Positions 1 through 18,500 of a stretch of 22,581 bases of DNA are shown piece after piece. Each line of letters begins with the position of its first letter. Position 1 is the first letter of the stretch. The DNA comes from a virus: the IMG/VR virus record IMGVR_UViG_3300009605_000163, positions 1-22,581 of that record. One strand, 5' to 3'. Both the position numbers and the translations under genes were made by a program. The notes beneath the pieces are model-generated. The model was not told where the DNA came from. It saw only the letters and a program-made list of their open reading frames with translations, and made no database searches.

Positions 1-708
1 AACTTCAATGTCAAAATTTTCTTTTAAAAAATCAGTATTTTCTTCTAATACATCCACAAACAAAAAATCTGGCACAATTTGAAACAATGAAGAGTCATCA
101 AAATCTATTTCATCTTCGTCGTCTATTTGCCCACGAAATCTCTCCGGAATGTAATCTTTAACTAAGTCTCCTTCATCGTTAAAAAATGTCACATAAGTTT
201 TATAGTTTATATCACTATCTAATTGAGGTATTTTAACAATTGAATAATTTGAACCAGATATAAACTGAGATGAACCTGTTAATGTCCCATTAATATAATC
301 AATGTTCCAAGCTGGGGCATACTTATTTGATAAACTCGATTCTCCTATAGGCAGAGATAACGAATAATTTTTTTCTGGACCATGTTGTGCAATTCCAAAA
401 TCCAACCAATCATTACTTGGCCCTGTAAACGGTTCGTCTGTGCTTTCAAACTTTCCTTTTAATGTTTGAAATTGTGTTTCGATACCACTAAAAACGTATT
501 GTGTTTTAACTCTAGGAGTGTTAAACTTAATCCTTGAAGCTGAATTATTCTGTTCTTCTGAACCACGTGCATAGCCAACATCATATAATATATCATCATC
601 AAAAAAAGCATAACCATCTGGCTTAAACTCACCTATAGATAATAAATATTTACCATATTGCGTAAGCTGAATGTCAATAACATCTTCTTTTTTATTAAAA
701 AATTCCAT
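1..708 (-). CDS. Virion structural protein of unknown function, N-terminal part (runs off left edge)
   Basis: An open frame of 236 codons starts at an ATG at 706-708 and continues past the left edge without a stop, so only the N-terminus is seen. It begins MEFFNKKEDVIDIQLTQYGK, followed by a FFDDDILYD-type stretch near residue 38. From memory, this N-terminus resembles proteins encoded beside baseplate genes in uncultured marine T4-related phages; I know no assigned function. An acidic stretch (DDEDEIDFDDSS) lies near residue 200. There is no signal peptide or membrane segment. It follows the 3620-aa gene after a 34-nt spacer holding a purine-rich GAGAG about 10 nt before the start, and it is presumably the next cistron of the same late operon. 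An ATG at 713-715 is out of frame. The frame and start are well supported; the structural role rests on context. Confidence 0.8.
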   Translation of the reverse strand, partial: MEFFNKKEDVIDIQLTQYGKYLLSIGEFKPDGYAFFDDDILYDVGYARGSEEQNNSASRIKFNTPRVKTQYVFSGIETQFQTLKGKFESTDEPFTGPSNDWLDFGIAQHGPEKNYSLSLPIGESSLSNKYAPAWNIDYINGTLTGSSQFISGSNYSIVKIPQLDSDINYKTYVTFFNDEGDLVKDYIPERFRGQIDDEDEIDFDDSSLFQIVPDFLFVDVLEENTDFLKENFDIEV

Positions 709-742: not shown

Positions 743-3700
743 CTAAAATCCATAGCCGCCGCCTCCGCCGCCGCTGCCTCCGCCGGAGAAGTCGTCACCC
801 ATATCTGATGTATCCTTCAGTTTTGCTTTCGGCGGTTTGGTTTTGGTCTCCGTCTTTTTTCTGGATCTTTTTTCTTGCTTGTCTTCCCCCGGGATGACAA
901 TGACTACGCCCGCTGCTTTCGCTTTCTTCACCGCAGCCTCCTCTCTCTCTTTTCTATCAGCCGGGCTCGTTTCAGAAGGATCCTCAAACTCCCATTGGGC
1001 TTGCTGCTGTCCTGCGAGTTCAGATTTTTTATATGTAAATTCTCCTCTCTTTCGCGCCGATTCAGCAAGGCCTGCAGCCAGGTTCAAACCAGCTTCTTTT
1101 TCTTGAGCATCCAGCGCTGCTAAAGAGAGATTAGTTATTCTAGCTAGTTCAAGCGCAAGAGACTCGGGCGGAAGACCGCTTTGCCAAATGCCCTTCTCTG
1201 CTGCTTTTTGTGCCTCTGCAATATATTCTTCTTGTAGGTTGTCAGGAATTTCGGGACCTTCCCTTATAAGAGTTGGATCAATATACTCAACACGAGCATC
1301 AATTTTTGCCAATTCTATAAGTGAGAAATAATCATATGGCCAATTAAAACTATAATTAGGCCTTTCCCCTTGAACGTTAAACTTCGCTTGATCAACCGAA
1401 TCACTTTGAGGATCATTGGGAGTTAATAACCTTGCGCCATATGAATCTTCTAACATTCTAAAATAACTGCTTTCCGCTCTTTGCTTCACTTTGAATACCA
1501 TCCATCGCAAGTTATCCGGTAAACCATCCAAATTAAAGAAATCACCAAATAAGCCCAAAGGATGTTCAACAACTGCCTCAACTAGCTCTGCTTTTCTCGC
1601 AACTTTTGGCATTAAATTCTGCCATATATCTGAAAGATCATCTTGATCAAAGGTGTGATTGAATTCAAAAACGTACATTACAATTGGTTTTACATCTCTA
1701 TTCGTAACAAAGTCCAAGTGCGGCGGAAATACATATTTTTTCTGCGCTTCTACCAATTTCCTTATTGAAGTAGCACCTTTTCCAGCCAAAGCGAAACTAA
1801 CTTGTGATTGCAAGAAATGATAATATGGATCTGCTGAGCCTTGCTTTATTGGTATTGCAACAATGGCTTCAGAAACTGTTTTTCGATTAGCAACTTCTCC
1901 TAATTTTCTAAATGGAGCTTTGGCGCCTTGTACTTGATCAAATCCAAGTTTTTTCAAAAGAGAGCCAGATCTATGAGGCGTGGGCCAGCCATGCGGGCTT
2001 CGCAAAGATTCATTTCCGGTTCCAATTCCATCAATGACGGCTGCCTTGGCTTGGCCAGTAAGGTTTTTCGGTGGCGGAAACGATTCTTTAAGCTTCATAA
2101 AAATTCCATCTTTAATAGATGGAGGATGCCCATATTGCATCCACATAACGCGTGGATATCTATGATCGTGAGGACTGTTCGCCCCATCAGACCCTTTCTT
2201 AAGACTGCCTGTAAAATTTAACGCTGGGCATTCAAATTTTGTTCCAATTGACCACAAGTCAACAACATCTGAAACCGAATCTTTTAATCGAGTTACTTCA
2301 AATTGACCATTATTTGGGTTTTTCTCAAATTCAGCTTCTGGAAGTCTTATTTTGTTAAACATATTTATGCTTGCCGCTACCTGCATAGAAGCCGTGTGCG
2401 CAAACATTCTATGATCCGGACAATAAGGTGCGCTAGAAAAGCTTGCAGTTGCGCGTAATTGTTCAAACCTGTCTCTAAAATCAACGCCGTGGACGTGATT
2501 ATGCAGACTTGTTTCTTTTTGGGAGAATTGAATAATTTCGCTAATTGAAAATTGTTCGATATCTCCTATATCCATTACTCTATGTTTGTCTGGGCTAAAT
2601 CTAATTCTTTCTGTTTTCTCTCCATAAAAATATGGTGGAGTAAAGGCTGCCCAAGCAGGATCTTGCATACTAACATAAGTGCCTCGTGACGGGGCATTGA
2701 AAGTCTCCGTGCCCGCTTCTTTTACCGCCAAGGTTGCGTTAAATTTAACTTGTCCTGATGGTCCATAATATATGCCTCTAGCTCCACCTGTTAAGTTAAC
2801 ATTAACCCCTGGTATATAATAGCCGCGTAAGTCAGGCCCTTCAGAAATAATCATATCATCCGACTTTGCCAACGCCACATCCATAAAATATGTTGTGCCA
2901 GAAAGCATCCAAAACGGGCCTGGTTTGGAAGCAAACGACTTAAGTCTTTCATCTTTAAGGAAAAATTTTGGAACTTCGCCTAAGAAATTATTCATGGCTA
3001 GTTCGTATTTTTTATGATCCCCTTTGCCATCCCACGCCATGGCATGTCCTTCATGATTTTGGTAAGACCCCATTGACATATCTAATAGTAGCCTCCAAGC
3101 AGCTCCTTCCTCCGCATCTTCAAGATCCCCAGACGGGAGGAGGGCATTTGGCAAATAACTAGTCGGCTGAACTAACCCTTCAATAGGCAGCCTTATATTA
3201 GGCAATACTGGATCTTGCATTGAAGTTACAGTATAGTCGTGAGTGACGTGGGGTGAGTTGGTGGGAGAAAATGGGAATCTAACAGGAGCAATGTTACTCC
3301 AAACGCTTTTTTGGCCACTATTCCCTACAGCCCCTGTGGTTAAATAACCAGATATTGCCAAAGGACTGCCAGTAAACTGTCTATAAGATGGTATATATGA
3401 ACCTGTATATATAGGCCAATCAACTGCAATGCCCGCCTTTATTGTATTAAACAACACACCAGGCGCCATCATCGGCTGCAACATTGCTTGCAACCTGGAC
3501 GCATCAGAAGTCTTAATTGGTCCATATTCAGATCCATCCGTGGCGACATCAATAAATCTTTGGTGTTGAGCTGTGTTCGTTTTATCAACCAAATGAGGAC
3601 CAAAGGATTCTGATAACAGGTTCCCGAGCTGAATTGTTCTCAAAACAGGATAGAACCCATTATAAGGAAGAAGTTTTTTAATTCCTTTACATTTTAGAAC

Positions 3701-6700
3701 AAATCTACCCTGTTTTCCTCGTGAGTAACTTCCCTCGGGCCCAGCGGACTCATAATCTTCTTTGACAACGTCAATGAATTTTATAAAATCGGAATGTGAA
3801 TAAAGATTATAAAATTTTCCATTTCTATATGCCGGGCGGCCTCGACCTGGATAACGAGTCGAACTAGATGTAACTTCTACCGCTCCGTCTATAGTCATAA
3901 ATTTTGTATTTACACTTTTTGGTGAAAAATCATTCTGCAAATAAAAATCCATATGTTCAGAAATTCTAAATTCCGGAATAATTGAATAATCTTTTGCTAT
4001 ATAACGAATGTCTTTTGAGAACTCTTCATATGAATCATACCAAGGAGCATTGTTCGAGAATTCACTAGCACTATATGCCGGCCTAAAATGGTGCATTCCA
4101 GATGCAGTAGCATAACTATGTTTTGCAGAGCCAGATGCGGTTTCAAGGCCGTAAATGTTGTTTGTAGTTACTCTTTCCGCTCCATCGACAGTTTGGTCAC
4201 CGTACCCAATAGTACTATTGTAACTACCATAAAAATTGAACCATGTATATTTTAAAGAAGCTGTATGTTGCCACCAACCACTATTATAAAGCTCAGTTAA
4301 ATCTGCAAAATTATAGTCATCACCTTGTTGAAAACAAAAATCTGTAGAAAAAAGTTCGCCACCTATATGCGGATTCCCTTCAGAATTATCGTTAATGTTA
4401 GAGTCTAACGGCCACATGCTTAAGCATATTGGATTAACTTGAAAAGCAAATCTCTTATTAAAGATACCTGAATCTCTAGCTGAAAAAAGAGGAAAACCTT
4501 GTGAATTTCGTGCATTATTAAATGGGTTGGGGTAACCTGGCTCCCACGCATCTGGTGTACGAATTACTAAACTTTGGTCGCTTCTTAAGCGATTAACATT
4601 TTCATCTTTCCAAAAAGTTCTATGTTTGCCATGAATTCTATCAAGCCCATTAACTCCTCTTCCTAGAACTTCTGTATAATTTATTCTTCCGCGAGTTCCA
4701 CTGAGATAAGTATTTTCCTCTTTTGGCCAAATTGTTTCTTGATAACCGAAATTTATAAGAGAAAATCCTTCGGTTGCTACATATAATGACGTTGGATCGG
4801 GGTTATTCCATTTAGTGGTATTAACAGCAGGATGTCTAATAAGATTCGTAATATTATCATAAATTTGTTGCTGGTTTCTTATTTGTTCAACCTTATCTGG
4901 AATCATTTTTAAATCTAAGGTTGTTGTTCCGGCAAGTTCTGAGCCATGAGGATTTTTTGGAAAAAAACTTTTTATATTTCCATAAGAATGTCTAAGTGAA
5001 TATTCTTTGCTATTTTCATCTGAAACCACATAACGAAGCTTGTGATGCATTGGTTTGAATTTACTTGTTACGGGCGGCATTCTAAAAGAGTTGATTATTC
5101 TATCTTTATCTGAAAAGACTTCGAAAGGCGATTCAGGGTCCCGCCCGCCGCCTTGCACAAATCTATATGGTTCCTTTCTTACATGAACATATTTATCTCC
5201 ACGTATAGTTTTATAATTGTCAACTAACTGCAGTATATTAGATTTCCTAAGATGTCTGGCAACTGCATGTTCTGATGTTCTGACTTGTTTCCAAATTGGC
5301 CAGCCATATACTCCGCCGCGATTTATGAGTAAGGCGTTTAAAAAACCTATTGAGCCAGGAATTGAGCCCTGTGAATAGGCGGTGTTAGCAGCCAAAGAAG
5401 ATGAATTAACAAATAATTTATTTAGCCCTCGATATGCGGTTGATTGGCCGGTCGGCGTGTCCGTTGTACAAGAGGTGGCCGCATCCTTGTCCATCACCCT
5501 GGAGTGCCCTGTGCCGTCAAAATAAAAATCTCTATTTACAGCTTTTGAGCCCATATCTTGACCATACCCCAAAAGATTACCAGTGATAGGTTCAATAATA
5601 ACAGTATTTAATCCAACAAAATCAACAAACGTTTGATCATGGGTTCCAACATCTCCAAATGTTGCCATACGTTTGCCTCCTTTTTTTCCGAAAGCGTATG
5701 TGATGAGTCCGGGACCGTTATAAACAACAATATCTGATGCACTTACAAATTGTAAATCTGTTGAAGGGCTGCCTTTGATTCCATGATTCGGCTGAGCATA
5801 TCCAAACGGTAAGCTTTTAACCCATGTTTCTCCATCGAAACCATAGTGGCCTAAATTCTTATAAAGAAAGGTGCCAACTGTTCCGCCGGCCGTACCATAT
5901 AGATAACCACACTGACTAGTCCAATACTCTTTAGCCTGGCCAGGGACGGCCCAGCCTAGACCTGTTCCCTCATCAATTGATCCAGTGATACCTCCAAAAT
6001 TTTCATCGGTTCCCCAAAAGCCCAGCAAAGTTCCGCCACGTATATGAGATTTTGGCATCATTGAACTAGAAATACCAACAAGAGAATCTCTAATCCATTT
6101 ATATTGAAGATCGCTTTGTGGAATTGGTCGTGTTATAAATGCATTATCATAACGAACTGAAGCTGTTAGAAGACTAGTACCTTGACCATGAAGATGTTGT
6201 ACATGATAATGGCTGTTACCTTTGAAGAATCTTTGTGGATTTCTATTAACTTTATGAAACGATGCCGAGACCGTATAATGGCCAGGAGATGCAACGTTCC
6301 CACTAAAGAGGCCAAACTTTGCGGATGGGGTGTTTAAAAATCTATGAAGCGGTTCTCTAACAGTCGAATTTCTATAATTCATAGAATTGTAAGCCGAATA
6401 TTCTTCTGAGGAGATGTCTAAGAATCCGCGAGACATAACTTCTGGGCCGCCGGGGGCAGAAAATCTTTCTACAAAAACATATTCATGCCTATCACGAGTA
6501 GGTAATGTCCATTCTGAAATGCCGTGAAGAAGCGAGGCAGTGCCTTCATTAGTTACTATATTTCCATCTTTCTCGACAAAATACCTATTGTTATGTTTTC
6601 TTCCAGAAGTTTGCACAAATTGATATCTTTTATCAAAATTACCAATCTTTGTGAATCCTAGTCCATCGCCCGCGTAGACGACGTCGGCGGTGGCGTGGGC

Positions 6701-9700
6701 GCCCGGGATTGTTCCAGTTGTATGATGTATGTTTGCAATATTAACCGGTCTTTTTGCAACACCGTCACGGAAGAACTGAGATCGAGCCTGATGAATTGTT
6801 CTAGGCTGAATCAGTATCTTTCTTGGCTTATCTGTTCTCCCATCTAATTGATCGCCAAGTTCAATATTCCAAGCTTCAATACGATCTTCTGAGCCAGTTG
6901 TGAATAGAATTGCATGCCTGTATGCCGATCCTCCAACATGTTTCTCTGTGAATGGGCCCTGCATTGGTACTTCACCGTTAAGATTGTATGTGTCATGATG
7001 AATATTTGTAACGACTGCAATTGGTTCATTATCATTATAGATGCTGCCGGCTCCCTCAACAGATGCACTATAAAAACTAAACGGTGCTAATAAATCTCCT
7101 TTTCCAACAGCATAATCTCCAGCAAGTGTGCCGCCGGCCAATGGATAAAATGTACTGTCAGTGGTTCTTGCAACATCATATGCGTCAACTTTGAAAGAAT
7201 ATTGAAAATTCTTCGATGGTTCCATTTCTGGAGCGTCATGATTCCATGTTTCTTCTCTAACCATATCACTAGAAGTGATTTGGAAATATCTTTGATTTCC
7301 AATTCTTAATGCTTGTTTTAGAAGATCTCGATTTTTGTTTCCTTTTCTATTTGGTCCGCCATGTATATCAAGAGGAGGACTGTTACCGACATCTACTTTA
7401 AATGAATATTGTCGACTTCTATTGAAATATTGAGGATTTCGACCAAGCCCATCTGTTTCATTCTGTATAGCTTTCAGTAATCGATCTCTGTTGTCATCAA
7501 CATATTGGTTTGTCCCAATTGCAGACCCAGATCTTACCGCTCTTTCCTTCCACCATAGAGAGTTTTTGTAAAGAAGATCGATTTCGCGTGGTGCTTCTGA
7601 CTGCCCTTGGCCGCCAGTGAAGGCGTCTTCAAGAATTTTAGTTCCCGAAAACCCATTTGTCCCTGCAAGCACATTCTCATGTCCATTTCCTTGCGCTCCC
7701 TTGTTCGCGAATTCCAGATCGATAGTTGCACCGCCACCAGTTCCCGGGACCTTCGCGAGGAGTCTGAGGTCGACAGTATTAACAGAATTCACATTTCCAT
7801 CACTGAAAGCAGCATTCGTATTTGCAACTCCATTAATGGCATCGGCGCAGACAGCAGCGCGTTGGGCGTCAGTGAGGCCATCACGAGCAATATAGTATAC
7901 ATTTCCAGCCGCTCCAGCATCGACAGTAGTTGTGTTGTGCACGAATTTGAATGTATAGGTAACGCCATCCCCTCCCATCGCAGTAGGAGATGTTAGCGTA
8001 AATGTGTGATCGTTTTGCACGCTGGCACAGTTAATCGCGTTGGCCAATGATGCCGCAATTGACTTAACCTCTGTTATTGGTGGATGACCGAATTTCCAAT
8101 TATACATCATTTCTCTGCGGCCTCGAATAGACGCAATTGGATCCCCTTGTTTCATTTCAAGAGTGGGAAATTTAGTCCAATATTTGTTTCTCTCGAGAAC
8201 ATGACTCTCTATAATCGTGTTTATATCTCCAGATGCGTTAGCGGATATTGGCATTAATTGCATCAATAATTTGTTTATCGAAGAATCAACCCACTTATAA
8301 TAATCTACATATCTGTCCAGATCTGGAGTATTTCCAATTCTGTCGAAAAATAATTGTCTAAGTTTTGCTAGAGCTTTATATTCCTGTCTATATCTGTTGA
8401 CAGGTTCTCCAATTAAATTGTTAAAATCTTTAATTGTGGCAAATAAATTAAGAATTTCCTCTGAAATTGTCTGATACATACTCTTTTCAATGGAAATAAA
8501 ATGGGTTATTGGTCGACTTTCTTTTGTAAAATTAATGTCATCCTGAGTTCTAATTTTAACCATATCAGAACTACCGATCATCTCCGGAAGCTTTTGTTTG
8601 GCTGCCGCCAGATAATTTTTGTCTACCGCCTTATTAAATGGTCTTCCTTTGGGAAAAAAATGTCCTTTACCAGTGTGCTGCGCCGAAAGTCTTCTCGTAA
8701 GCCATCCATATTTATTAGTCGATTCTGCAAGGGACCCAGAAGATAAATCCTCGACGTCAAATGTGCCGTTCTCATTTGAGCCGGTTACATTACCAAAGTC
8801 CCAATGTAAAACAAGTGTGGCCGCTTGTGGGACATAAAGATTTTTAAGATTTCTTGCCGGCTTTGATGTCGGTAACAAAAACGCATTTCTGGAAGGGTGT
8901 AATGTGCCATAATTTGTAGGATCTTTGGCATGTATATTAACTTCTTCATTTGAAATATTTCCATACCAAAATCTAACAGAAGATATCTTTGCATCACATC
9001 TTGCTATAACGGATCCAGTAAAGTTTGTTCGATGTGCACCGATATACAATCTTTTTGAACCGCTTAGCCAAGGACTTAACTTATCTGGTCCGATAGCTCC
9101 CGTTAATTTAAAAACAGTTTTTATAATTCCCTGTTCTGTGTTAACGCCATAAAAGTCAACCATACCAGGACTGCTATGTGAGCCACTTACGGCAGGTGCC
9201 CATGGATATGCTTTTGGGCGAACTCGTACAGCAAAATTCCATCTATTATCATCGTAAACACTATCATAAACGGATGTTGTCAAGTTTAGCTGCAAGGCGC
9301 TAGAAGTTAATTTAAAATAAGCACTGGCGTCGCCATGGCCTATACCTTTAATAGCGTAAACTTGGAAATCTGATGTTTCGTGATCGAATGCCCAACTAAG
9401 TTCGTCTACTTCATCTCTATGTTGCCAATCTTCAATTGCATCATGAGCGCCAAAAAGTGAAACAGTGTCAAAATTTGCATATGCATAATTATCTGAATCT
9501 ATATTTAATGTTTTTGGAAATATAACTTCCGCTTCAATAGTTTGAGCGTCTCCGGCGTCAAACAAATTTGAACTTCCGGAGACAAAAGAAACTGTTTCGG
9601 AGTTATTGCTTCCGGTCATTTGATATACAGTGGCTTCAAAACTACCGGTGTGATTAAAAGCTGCATAATTCTTTTTTATAACTCGATAATTATAATTTTC

Positions 9701-11605
9701 TTTGAAATCGTAAACTGTATCACTAGCAAAAATATTAATTTTTATCAATTCATCATCAATGCCAAAACAACGAATTGCGTTTCTAAAAGCTTTTTCTGTA
9801 CCCTTTGATTTGTAAATATATGAAAGATTGTTATAAATGTTTTGATAAATTAAATTTTTAACATCTTGAAGGTCTTCTTTAAATTCTCTGTTTTCACTTC
9901 TTTCTAATATTTTTTCAATTATATCTGCATCAACAAATAGTTCCGGAACATTAAGCCCTCGCATCTCCAAAAGTCTATTTGCAAATGGGATCGGCTTGTG
10001 AGTCCCACTTACATAAGCTGTGTTTTTAAGCTTTTGGAACATGCTAATTTGTAATGCAAGTTGATCAAAATAGCTTGACATAACTTGTGTAAGTTTTTTA
10101 AGATTTTTGGCGCCATCTTGATCTTCAGAAGTTATCCATTCCGGTATTGATTTATAAATCGCGGCATTATTTCTATAATCATATGTTCTTCCGAAATCTT
10201 TTTTTTGCGTAAGAACATTGCTGACATCTGGATGTTTAGAATAAATAATTGGATCTTTAAATTCAAATTTTGCAGCTCTAGCCTCAACCATGGCGGAGCC
10301 TGTTTGGCGAGATTTTTGAGCATAACCTTGCCACTCACCATTAGAAACTCTTCCAGAATAATCTAGAACTTTCGCATCTATACTTGAACTCCCAACTATG
10401 CCTTCATTAAATTTATAATAAACGCCTAATTGCGTATTTGCTGTATCTGTATTTGTGCCGCCGCCTACTTGTGCAAACCAATATCTGCCGATGTCTCGGG
10501 CGCTTCGCGCTGTTTTCCAGAATCTAAACTCATCCATAGAAGCAGATAATTTGCCCCAGCCTCTTTTGGGTATTGTGTCTGCTATATGATCTGTGGCAGT
10601 GCCGCCGCCCATGGAATTGTCAATCAAATACAACGTACCGGATGGTCTTGCTGCCAAAGCTCCAATTGTTGCCACAAGTGCACCGCTAACGTACCCAACG
10701 GTCGAGCCTGTCATCAAGACTTGATTTCTTATTCCGTCAACATACAACGTAGTTCTAATATGGCTACCAGAATTAATAAAAGAAAATGCATAATGGTGCC
10801 AATGATTGTCTGCTATCAACGATGGTGTCAAATTGGTGCCGATGGCTGTAGGTCCAAAGCCTTTACTTCCAGATTGGTATGTTGCATAAAAAGGTGTTCC
10901 GCTAACTCCTCCACTCATTTCAATTCTTAATCTGGCATAATCTGCACTAGCAGATAAACTTTCGGTCATATGTAAATCAAAAATTACTTCTTTTTGAGTT
11001 TTTGATGTATCAAATGCATCTTTCTTCAACCAAAATTCAACCGTGTTTCCGTCAGTGCCGCCTATTTTAAGATTGGACTCTCTATTCTGCGCAAAACTGA
11101 ATACATTGGATTTTCCATCGGATGATGGAAACATTTTGGGTAAAGTGGCGACGTCCGGATCTCTATGGGGACCACCTTTAATTAAGATGTATTCATAAGA
11201 TGCGGTGGCTGTAGCTCCATATCCCTGAAAATCTGCCACTTGCGTTCCCCATGAACCATGAGAAAAAACAATATATCCATTTGTTCGAGGATAAATATTT
11301 TCAAAAATATGCTCATCTAAATACGATGAACTGTTGTGCCAGGTTATTTTTTCGTATTTTGAACCATCATATGGATAAGTTCGATATATCCTTTTAATTG
11401 ACTGTTCATAATATTCTTCAGCTGAGCCAAATCTTACAAACGTATTTGGGTCATCATAATTTGCATATGGAATAATTTTTTGGTCATCGTGAACTTTTGC
11501 TTCAAGAACTTTATAAGATTCTATTTCTTTGCCAAGTTCTTCAATTGAAGTATTTGATAATACCTTTTCTTTCTTATTTTTATTAAATAAATCTTTAATT
11601 GGCAT
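743..11605 (-). CDS. Giant (3620 aa) baseplate/tail protein, gp7-like position, with lectin-like domains
   Basis: A single uninterrupted frame starts MPIKDLFNKNKKEK and ends with TAG. Domains inferred by eye are: residues about 175-395, a concanavalin A/laminin-G-like module (TVEFWLKK, HHYAFSF, TTLYVDG, MDEFRFWKTA); about 500-630, a helical region with YKSKGTEKAFRNAIRCFG, resembling the KGT motif of P2 gpI / T4 gp7-type tail proteins; about 680-895, a second LamG-like module (ISSVRFWYG); about 1035-1120, helical; about 1183-1340, a GC-rich inserted domain ending in FTGGQG; then some 2,100 residues I cannot assign. The last 60 residues are charged and end in a poly-Gly tail (GGGSGGGGGGYGF). 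It begins 2 nt after the 525-aa gene. T4 gp7 is 1032 aa, so if this is its counterpart it is over three times larger. A peripheral baseplate wedge protein with glycan-binding modules is my best reading; a tail fibre or adhesin is the alternative. Confidence 0.8.
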   Translation of the reverse strand: MPIKDLFNKNKKEKVLSNTSIEELGKEIESYKVLEAKVHDDQKIIPYANYDDPNTFVRFGSAEEYYEQSIKRIYRTYPYDGSKYEKITWHNSSSYLDEHIFENIYPRTNGYIVFSHGSWGTQVADFQGYGATATASYEYILIKGGPHRDPDVATLPKMFPSSDGKSNVFSFAQNRESNLKIGGTDGNTVEFWLKKDAFDTSKTQKEVIFDLHMTESLSASADYARLRIEMSGGVSGTPFYATYQSGSKGFGPTAIGTNLTPSLIADNHWHHYAFSFINSGSHIRTTLYVDGIRNQVLMTGSTVGYVSGALVATIGALAARPSGTLYLIDNSMGGGTATDHIADTIPKRGWGKLSASMDEFRFWKTARSARDIGRYWFAQVGGGTNTDTANTQLGVYYKFNEGIVGSSSIDAKVLDYSGRVSNGEWQGYAQKSRQTGSAMVEARAAKFEFKDPIIYSKHPDVSNVLTQKKDFGRTYDYRNNAAIYKSIPEWITSEDQDGAKNLKKLTQVMSSYFDQLALQISMFQKLKNTAYVSGTHKPIPFANRLLEMRGLNVPELFVDADIIEKILERSENREFKEDLQDVKNLIYQNIYNNLSYIYKSKGTEKAFRNAIRCFGIDDELIKINIFASDTVYDFKENYNYRVIKKNYAAFNHTGSFEATVYQMTGSNNSETVSFVSGSSNLFDAGDAQTIEAEVIFPKTLNIDSDNYAYANFDTVSLFGAHDAIEDWQHRDEVDELSWAFDHETSDFQVYAIKGIGHGDASAYFKLTSSALQLNLTTSVYDSVYDDNRWNFAVRVRPKAYPWAPAVSGSHSSPGMVDFYGVNTEQGIIKTVFKLTGAIGPDKLSPWLSGSKRLYIGAHRTNFTGSVIARCDAKISSVRFWYGNISNEEVNIHAKDPTNYGTLHPSRNAFLLPTSKPARNLKNLYVPQAATLVLHWDFGNVTGSNENGTFDVEDLSSGSLAESTNKYGWLTRRLSAQHTGKGHFFPKGRPFNKAVDKNYLAAAKQKLPEMIGSSDMVKIRTQDDINFTKESRPITHFISIEKSMYQTISEEILNLFATIKDFNNLIGEPVNRYRQEYKALAKLRQLFFDRIGNTPDLDRYVDYYKWVDSSINKLLMQLMPISANASGDINTIIESHVLERNKYWTKFPTLEMKQGDPIASIRGRREMMYNWKFGHPPITEVKSIAASLANAINCASVQNDHTFTLTSPTAMGGDGVTYTFKFVHNTTTVDAGAAGNVYYIARDGLTDAQRAAVCADAINGVANTNAAFSDGNVNSVNTVDLRLLAKVPGTGGGATIDLEFANKGAQGNGHENVLAGTNGFSGTKILEDAFTGGQGQSEAPREIDLLYKNSLWWKERAVRSGSAIGTNQYVDDNRDRLLKAIQNETDGLGRNPQYFNRSRQYSFKVDVGNSPPLDIHGGPNRKGNKNRDLLKQALRIGNQRYFQITSSDMVREETWNHDAPEMEPSKNFQYSFKVDAYDVARTTDSTFYPLAGGTLAGDYAVGKGDLLAPFSFYSASVEGAGSIYNDNEPIAVVTNIHHDTYNLNGEVPMQGPFTEKHVGGSAYRHAILFTTGSEDRIEAWNIELGDQLDGRTDKPRKILIQPRTIHQARSQFFRDGVAKRPVNIANIHHTTGTIPGAHATADVVYAGDGLGFTKIGNFDKRYQFVQTSGRKHNNRYFVEKDGNIVTNEGTASLLHGISEWTLPTRDRHEYVFVERFSAPGGPEVMSRGFLDISSEEYSAYNSMNYRNSTVREPLHRFLNTPSAKFGLFSGNVASPGHYTVSASFHKVNRNPQRFFKGNSHYHVQHLHGQGTSLLTASVRYDNAFITRPIPQSDLQYKWIRDSLVGISSSMMPKSHIRGGTLLGFWGTDENFGGITGSIDEGTGLGWAVPGQAKEYWTSQCGYLYGTAGGTVGTFLYKNLGHYGFDGETWVKSLPFGYAQPNHGIKGSPSTDLQFVSASDIVVYNGPGLITYAFGKKGGKRMATFGDVGTHDQTFVDFVGLNTVIIEPITGNLLGYGQDMGSKAVNRDFYFDGTGHSRVMDKDAATSCTTDTPTGQSTAYRGLNKLFVNSSSLAANTAYSQGSIPGSIGFLNALLINRGGVYGWPIWKQVRTSEHAVARHLRKSNILQLVDNYKTIRGDKYVHVRKEPYRFVQGGGRDPESPFEVFSDKDRIINSFRMPPVTSKFKPMHHKLRYVVSDENSKEYSLRHSYGNIKSFFPKNPHGSELAGTTTLDLKMIPDKVEQIRNQQQIYDNITNLIRHPAVNTTKWNNPDPTSLYVATEGFSLINFGYQETIWPKEENTYLSGTRGRINYTEVLGRGVNGLDRIHGKHRTFWKDENVNRLRSDQSLVIRTPDAWEPGYPNPFNNARNSQGFPLFSARDSGIFNKRFAFQVNPICLSMWPLDSNINDNSEGNPHIGGELFSTDFCFQQGDDYNFADLTELYNSGWWQHTASLKYTWFNFYGSYNSTIGYGDQTVDGAERVTTNNIYGLETASGSAKHSYATASGMHHFRPAYSASEFSNNAPWYDSYEEFSKDIRYIAKDYSIIPEFRISEHMDFYLQNDFSPKSVNTKFMTIDGAVEVTSSSTRYPGRGRPAYRNGKFYNLYSHSDFIKFIDVVKEDYESAGPEGSYSRGKQGRFVLKCKGIKKLLPYNGFYPVLRTIQLGNLLSESFGPHLVDKTNTAQHQRFIDVATDGSEYGPIKTSDASRLQAMLQPMMAPGVLFNTIKAGIAVDWPIYTGSYIPSYRQFTGSPLAISGYLTTGAVGNSGQKSVWSNIAPVRFPFSPTNSPHVTHDYTVTSMQDPVLPNIRLPIEGLVQPTSYLPNALLPSGDLEDAEEGAAWRLLLDMSMGSYQNHEGHAMAWDGKGDHKKYELAMNNFLGEVPKFFLKDERLKSFASKPGPFWMLSGTTYFMDVALAKSDDMIISEGPDLRGYYIPGVNVNLTGGARGIYYGPSGQVKFNATLAVKEAGTETFNAPSRGTYVSMQDPAWAAFTPPYFYGEKTERIRFSPDKHRVMDIGDIEQFSISEIIQFSQKETSLHNHVHGVDFRDRFEQLRATASFSSAPYCPDHRMFAHTASMQVAASINMFNKIRLPEAEFEKNPNNGQFEVTRLKDSVSDVVDLWSIGTKFECPALNFTGSLKKGSDGANSPHDHRYPRVMWMQYGHPPSIKDGIFMKLKESFPPPKNLTGQAKAAVIDGIGTGNESLRSPHGWPTPHRSGSLLKKLGFDQVQGAKAPFRKLGEVANRKTVSEAIVAIPIKQGSADPYYHFLQSQVSFALAGKGATSIRKLVEAQKKYVFPPHLDFVTNRDVKPIVMYVFEFNHTFDQDDLSDIWQNLMPKVARKAELVEAVVEHPLGLFGDFFNLDGLPDNLRWMVFKVKQRAESSYFRMLEDSYGARLLTPNDPQSDSVDQAKFNVQGERPNYSFNWPYDYFSLIELAKIDARVEYIDPTLIREGPEIPDNLQEEYIAEAQKAAEKGIWQSGLPPESLALELARITNLSLAALDAQEKEAGLNLAAGLAESARKRGEFTYKKSELAGQQQAQWEFEDPSETSPADRKEREEAAVKKAKAAGVVIVIPGEDKQEKRSRKKTETKTKPPKAKLKDTSDMGDDFSGGGSGGGGGGYGF
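7580..8060 (-). other. Inserted GC-rich domain within the 3620-aa protein (residues about 1183-1340)
   Basis: This segment encodes a Gly/Ala/Thr/Asn-rich domain running from SLANAINCAS to FTGGQGQSEAP. It has markedly more G/C-ending codons than the coding sequence on either side. The pattern (a short beta start, an A..C.DAING helix, a GGGATIDLEFANKGAQGN strand pair, then a terminal FTGG) resembles, from memory, small accessory domains inserted in tail sheath and other virion proteins of marine phages. The flanking text, NWKFGHPP before it and NSLWWKERA after it, reads like one continuous host protein split by the insert. The boundaries are approximate. Confidence 0.55.
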
Positions 11606-11607
11606 GA

Positions 11608-13185
11608 TTACTCAACCCTAAATTTAAATATCTCTGGCTGTTCACGATATGAATTATTGACACGATAAACAAATTTTACTCCATAGGCATAGTCTTTTTC
11701 CAACATATCCATATCTAAATCAAAATAATTTCCAGAAACATCAAAAGATAATTTTGTATGCTGGTCGCTCCCAGTGCCATAATTAATAATTGTTTTATTA
11801 TCAATAGTTCTTGTTAACTTGTAATAAGCATCTTCAATAATTTTATTTTCTGGTTCGGTATTAACAACTGTGTAGGCACTTGGGTTCCAATTTTTATCTC
11901 TTATAAACAATCTAAACGTTGGAACTTCGTCCTTTGAATAATTTGATTTTAAATTTGTTATTTTAGTAACATATTTTGGGCTTGGATTATAAGTCGCAGC
12001 ATTCATCGCCTTGATCGTGACAGCTGATCCGGTGTGAAGACTCCCACTAGCGCCGGTATACCATCTGTCGTAAAACGCGCTAGCCGTAGTGTTTAAGGCA
12101 AATGATGCAGTATACACCCCCTTGGAGCTATATCCACCAGTTACAGTAGTACCTGCGGTGCTTAAATAAGACAAAGCGGTAAACGTGCCGCTGCCGGCAG
12201 GGGCAAAAATATCACCAGCGGATGCAGAATTATAGAGCCTAACATAAATTTTTCCCGTATGACCGGTCCCCGTAGTACCAACGTTGGGAATGTTTTTAAG
12301 TTGCCCTCTTACGAAATTGTACAAATATAGTGTATTAAGATTATCATTTGCATCTGCCAAAGAACTACTTCTAAAAAAGTTTCCTCGGTCATCTTTCGTG
12401 GCAGAATCCCATCTCGCTTCAATCATAGGCCGTTTAAAATAGTATTCAGAACTTCTTGCGAAAAACTTTTTAGTATAATATGACCTTCTAGAGCCAGTTA
12501 TATTCTGCATCCAGGAGGCGCTATTAATGCCAGTCAAAGTTTTAAAATATGCTTCTTGAGAACCTGAAAGGTATAAGCCAATGCCATAATTACTTTTTGT
12601 GCCGGCAATCCATTGTTCAACTATAGTTGTCACATCAGCTTCAAGATCTTCGTCGCCTTCATGAAATCCAACAGAAACCGCCGGGTTTCCCGCAACGTCT
12701 GGTGGGTGAAAGTCTCCGCCGAAATTACTCCATTTTGATAATTGGCCACCAGAACTACTCATGGCATTGACCCAATTGGCCCCTTCACCATCTTTTGTTA
12801 TATCTTTATACTGTTCCATATCGAAGCCGTGACCTTCTTGCCACTCTTTTGATACTGGAACAATTGTCAAAGTGTAGTTCGAAGGTAGCGTGAAGGCGTG
12901 ACGTGCATTAAACATACGAAGATGAAATTTTACATTATCTTTTGCAGGAATATCACCAGCATTTCTATCAGAAGTTATCGCTTCAATTGGAAATTTGATC
13001 AATACTCTAGAAAGTTCTGCAGAATATCCTAGCGATGAAGATGCTTGTCCATAAATAGAAAACACCTCTAAAACATCAGACTGACCCATAGAAGAGCCGG
13101 TTCCTCTATTACTGGTCATTAAGCTTGCATCAAAAGCATTAGTAATGGTTGTGTCTGCGTCAGCTATGTATCTTTTTATCGACAT
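11608..13185 (-). CDS. DNRLRE-like beta-rich virion protein (525 aa)
   Basis: The ATG at 13183-13185 shares its A with the TAA stop of the gp6-like gene (TAATG), so translation is probably coupled; AGAGG lies 12 nt upstream. The N-terminus is MSIKRYIADADTTITNAF. Residues about 55-110 (SRVLIKFPI, then FHLRMFNARHA) followed by VPVSKEWQEGHG and, near residue 190, ADVTTIVEQWIAGTKSNYGI match the layout of DNRLRE-type beta-sandwich modules: a beta strand, a W.EG motif, then a DVT..V..W..G..NYGI strand. That family occurs in extracellular and wall-associated proteins. The C-terminus (YGVKFVYRVNNSYREQPEIF) is also beta-rich. No membrane segment or signal peptide is visible. It lies between gp6 and the 3620-aa gene, so a baseplate-peripheral or fibre-attachment role is likely. 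Virion membership is fairly sure; the fold call is moderate. Confidence 0.8.
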   Translation of the reverse strand: MSIKRYIADADTTITNAFDASLMTSNRGTGSSMGQSDVLEVFSIYGQASSSLGYSAELSRVLIKFPIEAITSDRNAGDIPAKDNVKFHLRMFNARHAFTLPSNYTLTIVPVSKEWQEGHGFDMEQYKDITKDGEGANWVNAMSSSGGQLSKWSNFGGDFHPPDVAGNPAVSVGFHEGDEDLEADVTTIVEQWIAGTKSNYGIGLYLSGSQEAYFKTLTGINSASWMQNITGSRRSYYTKKFFARSSEYYFKRPMIEARWDSATKDDRGNFFRSSSLADANDNLNTLYLYNFVRGQLKNIPNVGTTGTGHTGKIYVRLYNSASAGDIFAPAGSGTFTALSYLSTAGTTVTGGYSSKGVYTASFALNTTASAFYDRWYTGASGSLHTGSAVTIKAMNAATYNPSPKYVTKITNLKSNYSKDEVPTFRLFIRDKNWNPSAYTVVNTEPENKIIEDAYYKLTRTIDNKTIINYGTGSDQHTKLSFDVSGNYFDLDMDMLEKDYAYGVKFVYRVNNSYREQPEIFKFRVE

Positions 13186-14978
13186 TACCTAATTGTACCT
13201 CTAATATCATCTGTTGGAAATTTAATTTCAAATATATGATCTTCTGGGATGTCTAATCTTCTACCATCAGCTGATAAATAAAAATTTATTGGGAACACCA
13301 CTTCCGAATGACTGCCACCATTTTTGTTAACAATATTAACATTTATAGTGTCCACTACCCCTTCAATAAGATTTAAAGTTTTATAAATTTCTGTTATATA
13401 TATTGGTTCTGAAATATTGTATGATTTATTATATTTTGTTTTTAATGCACTTGTTGCTCTTTCCAGTATCGAGTATCTATTGGCTTCAGAATCAACAATT
13501 ATCTCAAAATTGATACCAAAGTTGACAATTCTAGCGTCTAATATGTCAATGGTGTCATTTATCATTTTATGACGATTTAGCCAAATTTTTAAATTTTCTT
13601 TGATAGAATTGTTAGTTTGGGTCAATTTCCCTGCCTTGGTTTGAGAAATGACAAAAATATTTATATTTCTTTTAAAAGAATCATTATCTTGTATTATATT
13701 GGCTTTCTTTACCGCGCCAAATTGAGAAGGCATATTATAAATTACTGAAAGGTAATCCTGTCTTGTGACAGCTCTATTTTGAGCAGCGTAGTGATCTTTA
13801 ATTCTAATTTTTAACTCTTCTTGACCCGGCCGTGTTATATCGCCCACGATTTTATTTTCATTAGATACCTCTAAACTATCTCTTACGTCCTGCATCTTTG
13901 TTGAGTCTAGTTGTGCACGATTAGGAAATTCAAAAAAACTTCTAACAACGTTATTGATAGAATTAATTGTTGCATTTGAATCTGATGCCGTGTTCCTTCT
14001 ATAAGTCACAACCAAGGATGTGTCTGATGGAGCAATTCCAAACTTATCCGTTGAGATCAAATTAGAAGGATCGAAAGAATCGTCTGTTATGAAATCTTTA
14101 CCATGCATATTCATAATAATTTTGCTTGGGTCTACGACAGAGTCGTTAAATATTTCAGAATCTGAGCCGTAACCGAATTGCAAAAAAGTCTGATATTGTG
14201 CTTGTTCAACTGTAAAACGTCTTGCAACCGGCACTGGTTTCAAAAGCCTTGGTGCATATTCTCTTTCTTTGGCATTCTGATTTGTCACCGGCATATAAAT
14301 AACATTTTGAGATAAAAAATCAACTTCATAATATCTATGGCCTTCGGTGTCATAAACTGATACGATCTCAGTTACACTTGATTCCCCTAAACCAATTCTC
14401 AAAAACCTCTGAAACGGACCAACATCTATAACTTCTCTTTCAAGTCTACCAGATACCACTTGGCCGTGTGTTTTTACTGCATAATATGTGGGGACGCCCG
14501 TGGTTGTATTAACGGCTGCAACAACAACTTCATTATCTGGATTTGAAAAATCAATATTTTCGTTTAATACGTAAACCCCGCCATCAGCAGAAGCAAATTC
14601 AGTTCCCTGTTTCAACAAAGGCATATAAGATTTATCTGGGCCAATTCCAGACGTAACCGATGGCACCATTAAATACATATCTATAACTCCAAAAGACGCT
14701 GCACTTTGTTTAAATTTGTAACCGACTTGATGACCATGTCGTATTATGTTATTATATTCAATTGAACTATCTAAAAATGACTCATTTACTTGATAATCTA
14801 AATAAAAAGACAAAATATCCCCAACATAGGCGACAGTGTCAAGCATTAACGATCCAAAAGAAGCCTCATTAAAGTCTTTAAAAGTATTTGAATAATATCT
14901 TCTAGTATAGTCAACTAGATCATTTTTAATTGATTCAAAGTCTCTATTAGTATACCTTATTAATGGTTTTTTTGGCAT
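13185..14978 (-). CDS. Baseplate wedge protein, T4 gp6 / baseplate J-like
   Basis: This 597-aa protein opens PKKPLIRYTNRDFESIKNDL, continues with DFNEASFGSLMLDTVAYVGDILSFYLDYQVNESFLDSS, then HGHQVGYKF. This is the classic N-terminal signature of T4 gp6 / Mu gp47 (baseplate J) proteins: a tyrosine-rich start, a membrane-free helical core and a L..A..VGY motif. In T4, gp6 dimers form the inner baseplate ring and join wedges, next to gp25, gp53 and gp7. The length is close to T4 gp6 (660 aa). A later KIRIKDHYAAQNRAVTRQDYLSVIYN stretch (about 385-410) matches the (T)..DY motif of the family. The start has AAGGGA 9 nt upstream. It lies 32 nt after the gp25-like gene and overlaps the next gene by one base. 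Confidence 0.95.
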   Translation of the reverse strand: MPKKPLIRYTNRDFESIKNDLVDYTRRYYSNTFKDFNEASFGSLMLDTVAYVGDILSFYLDYQVNESFLDSSIEYNNIIRHGHQVGYKFKQSAASFGVIDMYLMVPSVTSGIGPDKSYMPLLKQGTEFASADGGVYVLNENIDFSNPDNEVVVAAVNTTTGVPTYYAVKTHGQVVSGRLEREVIDVGPFQRFLRIGLGESSVTEIVSVYDTEGHRYYEVDFLSQNVIYMPVTNQNAKEREYAPRLLKPVPVARRFTVEQAQYQTFLQFGYGSDSEIFNDSVVDPSKIIMNMHGKDFITDDSFDPSNLISTDKFGIAPSDTSLVVTYRRNTASDSNATINSINNVVRSFFEFPNRAQLDSTKMQDVRDSLEVSNENKIVGDITRPGQEELKIRIKDHYAAQNRAVTRQDYLSVIYNMPSQFGAVKKANIIQDNDSFKRNINIFVISQTKAGKLTQTNNSIKENLKIWLNRHKMINDTIDILDARIVNFGINFEIIVDSEANRYSILERATSALKTKYNKSYNISEPIYITEIYKTLNLIEGVVDTINVNIVNKNGGSHSEVVFPINFYLSADGRRLDIPEDHIFEIKFPTDDIRGTIR

Positions 14979-15010: not shown

Positions 15011-15394
15011 CTATAAAGTTATATTCAATATATCTGATATATTAAGTTGTGCAACGCTATATTCAATTTTAACATTAAGGGCGTTTCTATCTGTCTCAAC
15101 ATTCTCTCTTGTCCCTGTAAACTTTATTGATTTCAATTTTATAAAAGGCATATATAATTTTGCTTGTTCATGAATCTTTGCTGAAATATTTTGTCTTAAA
15201 GCAGGATTATTATTTTCAAACAAGAAACGCAAAATTCCGACACCAAAATTTGTATCCATAATTCTTTCACCAGGATTTGTTAAAATTAAATTTTTAAAAT
15301 TTTGTTTGATTGCTTCTCTAAGAGTTTTGTTTAATTTGTATGGCCCTAGTTCTTTATCAAGAGACAAAGGTAATTTTACTGAAATTCCTGACAT
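15011..15394 (-). CDS. Baseplate wedge protein, GPW/gp25 family
   Basis: This 127-aa protein contains TLREAIKQNFKNLILTNPGERIMDTNFGVGILRFLFE (about residues 24-60), the family-defining block of gp25/GPW proteins, followed by a helix (NISAKIHEQAKLYMPFIKLKSI) and terminal strands. The T4 relative is 132 aa, so it is full length. In T4 and in related contractile injection systems, gp25 sits at the inner baseplate, binds gp6 and contacts the first sheath ring, starting sheath assembly. The ATG at 15392-15394 has a strong AGGAG 9 nt upstream. It is the first gene after the only sizeable gap in the window, so it probably opens a transcription unit that includes gp6 and the genes that follow. It ends in TAG. 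Confidence 0.96.
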   Translation of the reverse strand: MSGISVKLPLSLDKELGPYKLNKTLREAIKQNFKNLILTNPGERIMDTNFGVGILRFLFENNNPALRQNISAKIHEQAKLYMPFIKLKSIKFTGTRENVETDRNALNVKIEYSVAQLNISDILNITL

Positions 15395-15571: not shown

Positions 15572-18500
15572 CTAAAACGAAAATGCATCTTTCAGCTTCT
15601 TCGCTACTTTCGCCGCGGCAGCCGCGATTTGCTCCGCATCGGCGTCTGCGAGCGGTGGCAAAGGAGGCGGCCATGGAGGCGGCAATGGAGGCGGCAAAGG
15701 AGGCGGCAAGGGTTCAGGCTCGGGTTGATATTCGCCCTTATCATAATATTCTTCAAGATTGTGACTATGCGCGCCTATTCCAGCGCTACTGGCATCTACC
15801 ACATTATAATTTGTAATATTATGATAATGAAATATATATTCGTTGTTAGGAGAATATGCATTTATTGCAACACCATTTCCATTACGATCAATAATAAATT
15901 GATGTGTATGTTTTCCTTTCTCAGTCTTGATGCCATCAGAATCTAAAACCTGTGCACCATCACATGAAGTTACACCAAGACTATAATCAGCCTCATCATA
16001 TAAAGTTGTAAATGTGTTATTAAACACGTTACTAGTGTTGGCGAACAAGTCATCTATGCTGTCTATATCTTTTATAACTTTTCCTCCACCAATCGCTTGA
16101 TCAAAAGTTAAAAAATTATAAAAAGCAAAAAGCATTGCATAATTATGCCTGGGTACAATATTTTCAAATATAAGTTTATATTCACTACTATCTATCAGTT
16201 TCTTCTTTAGGTCGGAAAATTGGGTAGAGCGCTCGTCATAATATGGAAGGTCACCGGTGTTGAGAGTAGGATAAAGAAGCAGCCTCTCCGTGCTCGGCGC
16301 GTTCCCGGCTTGCCCCTGCTTGAGCGCCGCCCACTCGGCATCGTAGCGCTCGTAGAATTCCTCTTCGGTTTCTACTTGGTTCCACCGGACGCGGTCTATG
16401 AGTTCCGCGGGTTCTTCCACTTGCAGAATTGGAAGAATAGCGACATCGGCACCAGGTGGCGGAGTTTTGTCCCCGAAACTTCCAAAGTCTTCATATGTTG
16501 CATAGCCCGGAATTTCTCTTATACTAAATGATTTAAACATTTTATTTTTTAAAAATCTTCCATCATGCGCATGCGGTGGGTAAGCACCATGTTCATCACG
16601 CATTCTGTCAAACTGATCATGAATTTTATCTGCAAAGCCTTCAAGAGACATTCCAACTTGTTTCTCAAGGTCGGACATACTATCTTTCTCTCCTGGTTTG
16701 AGATATTTTCCGGACGGGAGAACATAAGAAAGTCTTAATCCAAATTGAATAGCATCAAAATAATCATGGACATTCGGGGGTGATCCGCCCAACGGGGTGA
16801 ACAGCTCCGGAACATGTTTGAAAATGATTGGCCAATCTTTAACAGAAATATATGTGGACTTGGTGCCTGGGACTCCTTTCCACTCAACTGGCATCTTATT
16901 ATTAAATGTTTCTGTGTCAAGACCTTTGGGAAGATGTCCGATGCTTTTGAACAACACTCTTACATATTTTTCCAAAATAAAAGCGCCCGTGCCGGGGGCA
17001 ATAGAGGCCCCTGGTGGCGGAGTGCTCCGGTTGGCTTCGAAGTTCATGGTCCACCCTCCGGATGGGGGTTTGATGTTGGAGGTGGCATTTGAAGGCGTAC
17101 TGTCGACGAGGGATTTGGCAATTGCCAGTCCCATCTCCGCCGTGGTGTCTGAAGCAAATGATACAAAGCGGTTGTTACTATAGGTCCTAGATATAGCATC
17201 GCTTATATGTTGTGGTTGTAAGAGCGACCAATCTTCCTCTTTTATTGTAAAATCTACGTCTTCGCAGTTGACCTTTTTTCCACCGTGAATAGATGTGCAC
17301 CTCTCATTCTGATAGACTGTCGATGTCATGGTCTCGCGAGGAGAAAAAACAACAACATCATAATGTCTAGGGAGTTGTTCGACTTCATCCGAATGTTGGT
17401 GTTCGAAGGTAAACATATCGTCGCCTCCGGGATGAGCGTAAATGTTGTCTGGCTTAAACAATCCATTGTATCCGGTGAATACCGAATATGAAGGCAGGTC
17501 ATAAATTGGAAAATTCTCTAAATTTAGTTGTTGAATACCTGTTATATCTTGATATGTATCACTCAATTCTCTCGTAACGTCGCGAAACAATTGTTTTCTA
17601 AACTGTTCCGGGTCTGGCCATAAATTAATTTTTTTAAAAACATCTTTATATTCGAAAGATTTACTTATATAATCGTAAATGACGGGATTTGCAAACATAT
17701 CACTTACTTTAAAAATCGACGAAGCATAAAACATTCTAAGCATATTTTTAACTATATCAAATTTCATATATGCTCTAGCTATCCCTGCGGACGGAGCCAA
17801 AAATAAGGCGTTTTGTAAAAACGGCATTGTACTTTGTTCCTCGTTCAAGTCAACCGCATCCAACGCTTCTACATGTTGGTTAATCGCTACTTTTAATAAA
17901 CCTCTGCCTGGATTAGGAGGATCCGCATTAAGATCTGGAGCTTCTCCGACATCAAAAAGCCCTTCTAAATTTAATTCTCCTTCTGTAGCCAGAGTTACTA
18001 AATCTGATAACTGTGTATCAATCATATTTTTTGCGGCATCAACAAAAGATCTTAAATCTTTTTGCATAAGATTTACATAAAATAAATCTGGTCTCTGCTC
18101 AGCATGCTTCCCAGAATGTAATATTTTATACAACATATCTTTAATCCTATTGTCAGAGAGCGTGAATTCTTTATGAGTGTCGTTATATTGAGCTTGGCCG
18201 TCGCCCCCGATTTGCATTTCGTAGTGGGGTTTGATGTGATCTGAGCCGGGGATGCCGGCGCCGGAATCGTCTTGTTCATAGTAGACCCCCTCCGCTCTCT
18301 CACTATAATTTTCGTCAATTAATTTTTTAATAGCTAAATAAATCATGCTTATTTCTGGTTCAGCAGGGACTGTATGAATATCGGCAACAATGTCCAAATC
18401 ATTAAAGTACGACGGGAGGACAGAAGATGTAGAGGCAGAGTATAAAGTTTCGCCGCCGACGCTAACATTAAAATGATATGGAATTGAGTTTTTTCCCTCA

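Follow-up and report, generated by a model that had tools for sequence, protein, structure and literature searches.

The window, by which we mean the whole stretch analysed (22,581 bases, a complete IMG/VR record), is a viral fragment that derives from an uncultured, probably marine phage. Its genes lie on the minus strand in the 5'-3' order P0007 (cut), P0006, P0005, P0004, P0003, P0002, P0001 and P0008, with tight spacing from gp25 onward (Table 1). P0001 is a single unbroken ORF of 3,620 amino acids from its ATG, encoding a protein of 404 kDa, and its start codon lies 2 bases past the P0002 stop. The giant gene is directly part of the operon that holds the wedge genes gp25 and gp6, in a phage with a contractile tail. 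Based on conservation and on the points at which related proteins are split, we divided the chain into an N module (residues 1-1195), an insert, modules M1, M2 and C, and a variable tail. The window contains a second very large gene, that of the uncharacterized P0005 (1,895 aa), between the spike-like P0006 (331 aa) and gp25; P0005 has H-x-H motifs and a proline-rich tail encoded by a tandem repeat of 12 bases (15657-15709). At 755-785, a 15-base repeat encodes the glycine-rich C terminus of the giant.

Table 1. Genes of the window and segments of the giant protein
Feature	Position	Strand	Evidence or remark
P0001, giant, gp7-position wedge protein	743..11605	-	ORF; aligned relatives
P0002, 525 aa, directly upstream of giant	11608..13185	-	neighbor in 119/119 loci
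P0003, gp6-type wedge protein	13185..14978	-	PHROG 219, 4e-18; tblastn
P0004, gp25-type wedge protein	15011..15394	-	Pfam PF04965, 1e-14
P0005	15572..21259	-
P0008, cut by window end, downstream of giant	1..708	-	conserved in 103/104 loci
N0, residues 1-107, helical, conserved start of putative gp7-type core, FVRFGSAEEYY motif	11285..11605	-	hhalign vs Mel-JY01 family weak: E 0.002, probability 14%
LamG/pentraxin-like domain 1, residues 108-447	10265..11284	-	Pfam Laminin_G_3; model match to PAPP-A LamG
Probable gp7/gpI-type helical core, residues 448-660	9626..10264	-	hhalign to Mel-JY01 family; KGT site; homologous to immuto, Mel-JY01 and LR756508 gp7-position proteins
KSKGT motif, residues 599-603; K599, K601 and G602 invariant in alignment	9797..9811	-
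LamG-like domain 2, predicted, residues 687-884 (sandwich to about 940 in model)	8954..9547	-	model
Closing helical core segment, residues 1036-1142, conserved ESHVLERNK	8180..8500	-	common to Mel-JY01 family
Insert, residues 1200-1385	7451..8008	-	first two thirds missing in ~90% of relatives
Module M1, residues 1390-1870	5996..7438	-	relatives: optional extra LamG near 1800
Module M2, residues 1992-2515	4061..5632	-	start of separate gene in several relatives
Module C, residues 2516-3470	1196..4060	-	conserved in clade; stand-alone gene in L029
Variable tail and stop codon, residues 3471-3620, glycine-rich end	743..1195	-

Relatives with fused and split genes

Searching IMG/VR with the giant recovered 62 loci, and a search with module C yielded at least 583 confirmed stretches that encode it, so the clade is abundant. 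By contrast, tblastn against 50,697 deposited phage records found no clade member and returned a single weak match, to Flavobacterium phage immuto, and none of the papers covered by a literature search described this giant. Over the N module, the relatives share 36-49% identity with the window; for M and C, the figure is about 24-37%. Because relatives align to the giant from residue 1 to ~3,470, the 3,620-codon frame reported by the initial annotation is not a chance frame. The window record is one metagenomic fragment, which might raise the concern that the single frame is an artifact or a recent oddity of this contig; however, 89 further complete single frames occur in independent contigs, with 29-49% identity to the window's protein depending on the module, and this explanation, refuted by the relatives, can be discounted almost entirely. 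The gene order gp25-gp6-P0002-giant-P0008 is likewise conserved, with gp25 in 55/55 and gp6 in 66/68 testable loci (P0002 and P0008 in Table 1).

Of the 104 complete loci left after removal of duplicates, 89 have the giant as a single frame (2,806-4,037 aa, median 3,227), and in the other 15 the same modules are encoded by two to four colinear genes with breaks at module borders. Thus, the modules are separable, and the idea that the window's protein is a fusion is borne out by natural relatives. The split falls after N in L083, L093 and L114 (L103 is partial) and between M1 and M2 in L027, L038, L040, L053, L081, L091, L098, L121, L146 and L147; L029 is split at both M1/M2 and M2/C. Further breaks occur near residue 900 in L108 and near residue 430 in L146, the latter possibly a sequence defect. 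The spacing between adjacent pieces is mostly -11 to +51 bases. In L029, 1.2 kb separates the M2 gene from the C gene, and this interval holds another ORF. That ORF (320 aa, positions 15950-16912 of this 210-kb relative) matches PHROG 240, 'head protein' (2.5e-15), although a head gene would not be expected here. A quick tree of the core columns implies at least eight changes between fused and split forms, with many weak branches, and a gp6 tree places four split loci in one well-supported group, with L029 apart. Having fused and split versions of one chain makes the benefit of covalently fusing wedge parts testable.

Genes for the sheath and for the tail tube were each found in 11 of 12 long relatives, indicating a contractile tail. 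The sheath-like ORFs of L029, L044, L047, L058, L072, L079, L081, L129 and others encode 833-1037 aa, compared with the 663-codon frame of T4. Module C occurs in one copy per genome in nine clade records and was not found in immuto, Mel-JY01, LR756508 or T4. A search for hosts via module C in GTDB contigs gave four MAG contigs from unrelated phyla and no host call. One MAG labeled as a WOR-3 chromosome (L150, CP070664.1) carries, flanked by bacterial genes, the end of the giant, a P0008-like gene and additional tail genes; these phage pieces reflect either a chimeric assembly or a decayed prophage.

The N module: helical core and LamG domains

Proteins of the gp7 type form the least understood arm of the baseplate wedge, with lengths between roughly 180 and more than 3,000 residues. 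Sequence comparisons indicate that residues 448-660 of the giant are probably a core of this type. An hmmsearch with the N module detected the gp7-position proteins of immuto (1.7e-14), Mel-JY01 (3e-14) and LR756508 (1.8e-19), and hhalign against the Mel-JY01 family profile aligned residues 450-1130 with E 9e-22 and a probability of 99.4%. The KGT site is common to the giant and all three of these proteins, and a comparable site is found in P2 gpI (CHKGT) and T4 gp7 (STKGI). The gp7 position and the gp7/gpI character of residues 450-650, both proposed initially, find further support, weak but confined to one site, in Pfam Tail_P2_I (PF09684), which matches 13 of 50 non-P2 records, always at the KGT site of the giant. 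The best of these matches (4.8e-5, 20.9 bits) is the sole record above the cut-off of 20.6 bits, whereas P2 itself scores 8e-58; neither the window's own sequence nor T4 gp7 gave a match in this search. A T4 gp7 profile aligned with the core over the motif only and was not significant (E 0.007, probability 5%). The AlphaFold model of the N module (pLDDT 71.7, pTM 0.47) has low confidence around residues 530-640, and its fold-match lists are filled by LamG.

Great length and lectin-like domains are also what one would expect of a trimeric tail fiber or adhesin that merely lies beside gp6. We consider this very improbable, given the homology of residues 450-1130 to gp7-position genes and the Tail_P2_I matches; moreover, the protein appears globular rather than showing a repetitive fiber fold, and no coiled-coil, collagen or fiber families were found with Pfam or PHROG. 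Hence the combination that would point to a fiber, namely a lack of gp7/gpI similarity at residues 450-650 and a trimeric fiber fold throughout, is not what we observed. gpI, gp7 and TssG are equivalent proteins, and the wedge heterotrimer is (gp6)2-gp7 (PMC6300606). We therefore favor as likely the reading in which the giant is a greatly enlarged gp7/gpI/TssG-type member of such a wedge in a contractile tail. Residues 1-110, 450-660 and 1036-1140 would then form a core that holds two P0003 copies together in the heterotrimer, with six copies of the giant per baseplate, and the LamG domains would be inserted in this core, pointing outward. M1, M2 and C may be extra modules of the wedge or its periphery that extend gp7 covalently, in place of what would be separate peripheral proteins in other phages.

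Of the two LamG-like modules described initially, the first stands, and the second is predicted from the model only. LamG 1 is a concanavalin A-like sandwich of the LamG/pentraxin superfamily: Pfam Laminin_G_3 matches residues 184-316 (3e-8, 34.2 bits over a cut-off of 27.6), and the modeled domain superimposes on the PAPP-A LamG with Z 20.3 over 217 residues (rmsd 3.0). LamG 2 appears as a beta-sandwich in the model, where a neurexin two-domain match spans residues 108-944, and has no Pfam match.

LamG domains often bind glycans, and the initial annotation proposed that receptor recognition had been fused into the wedge protein. In its full form, this reading places a wedge core and receptor-recognition modules in one chain, with LamG 1, LamG 2 and perhaps C binding host glycans or surface proteins. 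It would also fit the strong variation of the linkers and the presence, in 12 of 39 relatives, of an optional third LamG near residue 1800 (detected with Pfam), as well as the precedent of XM1 gp17, a gp7 orthologue that binds tail spikes (PMC10457771). Against it, each of the 90 fused proteins checked carries both LamG 1 and LamG 2, with conservation near that of the rest of the chain, and other large downstream ORFs could be the fibers (996 and 690 aa in L038), though these are without a family match. Receptor-binding proteins usually carry swapped, hypervariable modules, and only the third, optional LamG behaves in this way. This pattern favors a constant, possibly structural, role for LamG 1 and 2 while leaving room for recognition by the third. 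As a description of the whole protein, we regard the recognition reading as unlikely, and the data did not bear out the original form of the proposal.

Modules M1, M2 and C

The initial annotation had left about 2,100 residues unassigned, and database searches leave this unchanged: Pfam, PHROG and the PDB sequences gave no significant match for residues 1200-3620. The whole giant matched no PHROG, and sequence profiles of N, M and C gave nothing useful against the PDB. Comparisons of C, M1 and M2 with T4 gp8, gp9, gp10, gp11, gp12 and gp53 and with the gp8, VrlC and giant proteins of cyanophages all remained at or below 5% probability, a weak negative since single sequences were used. We also modeled M2 and C together using the compact relative L006, which is 34% identical to the window (pLDDT 67.7, pTM 0.76). 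Against the PDB, the best Foldseek E value of this model was 1.3, and the best VIA-align match (Z 5.5, ~130 residues) fell among hits that were mostly viral jelly rolls (IPNV, PM2 P1, geminivirus, PRD1); these scores are too low to claim a jelly roll, which we keep as a lead only. Searching BFVD with the model returned homologous proteins only, one of them named from an uncultured marine virus. Every complete relative, fused or split, has kept module C, so this module more likely plays a structural role in the baseplate than that of an exchangeable receptor-binding part.

A further-reaching version, which we find doubtful, is that the wedge comes close to being a single chain. The gp7-type core would have absorbed several peripheral parts, M2-C would constitute a large, novel baseplate domain whose center resembles a jelly roll, and six copies of a 400-kDa chain would do the work of several separate T4 proteins. 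If so, the fusion could be tested with those relatives in which the modules are still, or once more, separate genes.

Comparison with known baseplate proteins

Over the core, the closest known counterparts of the giant are found in cultured phages: the 'hypothetical proteins' of Flavobacterium phage immuto (1,265 aa) and Microcystis phage Mel-JY01 (1,336 aa) share its place after gp25-gp6 and are homologous over residues 450-1130 (hhalign 97.7-99.4%), but they lack LamG 1, M1, M2 and C and are one third of its length. The 484-kb jumbo phage LR756508 encodes a 1,400-aa gp7-position protein that is homologous over the same residues. P2 gpI, to which T4 gp7 and TssG are equivalent, resembles the giant in the KGT site and in the position beside gp6/gpJ; unlike the giant, P2 gpI (176 aa) and T4 gp7 (1,032 aa) have neither LamG nor a C module. 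Described gp7 orthologues are between 242 aa (XM1 gp17) and 1,032 aa (T4) long (PMC10457771).

The size of the giant is not as exceptional as it initially appeared, since cultured marine cyanophages encode, in the interval from gp6 to gp8, a 'virion structural protein' of 3,048 aa (S-PM2p084), 3,274 aa (Syn1_094) or 3,494 aa (ACG-2014i). These proteins, which belong to T4-like GC 826, are like the window's giant in gp7 position, size class and a KGT motif near the N end. T4 gp7 is seemingly absent from pelagimyophages and cyanomyophages, with VrlC in its stead (PMC7029224). The match of the N-terminal 245 residues of the cyanophage giants to the KGT core of the window family is weak (E 6e-5, probability 65%, 30 columns), and so is their match to T4 gp7. 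In the cyanophage proteins, the core lies at residues 1-240, compared with 450-1140 here, and a separate gp8 follows. The S-PM2 giant contains YHYH and gave no LamG hit, and profiles of M1, M2 and C found no match in the S-PM2, Syn1 and ACG-2014i giants beyond the KGT core. Some cyanophage baseplate clusters (L281, L282, L284) hold several giants, and Syn1 has a 2,757-aa 'virulence associated protein' in addition to its gp7-position gene. Thus, a giant at the gp7 place was already known, if unstudied, from cyanophages, and the novelty here lies in a further clade, whose extra modules differ and which also includes naturally split forms. Together, this clade and the cyanophage giants suggest that, among marine myophages, gp7 has grown beyond 3,000 residues on more than one occasion.
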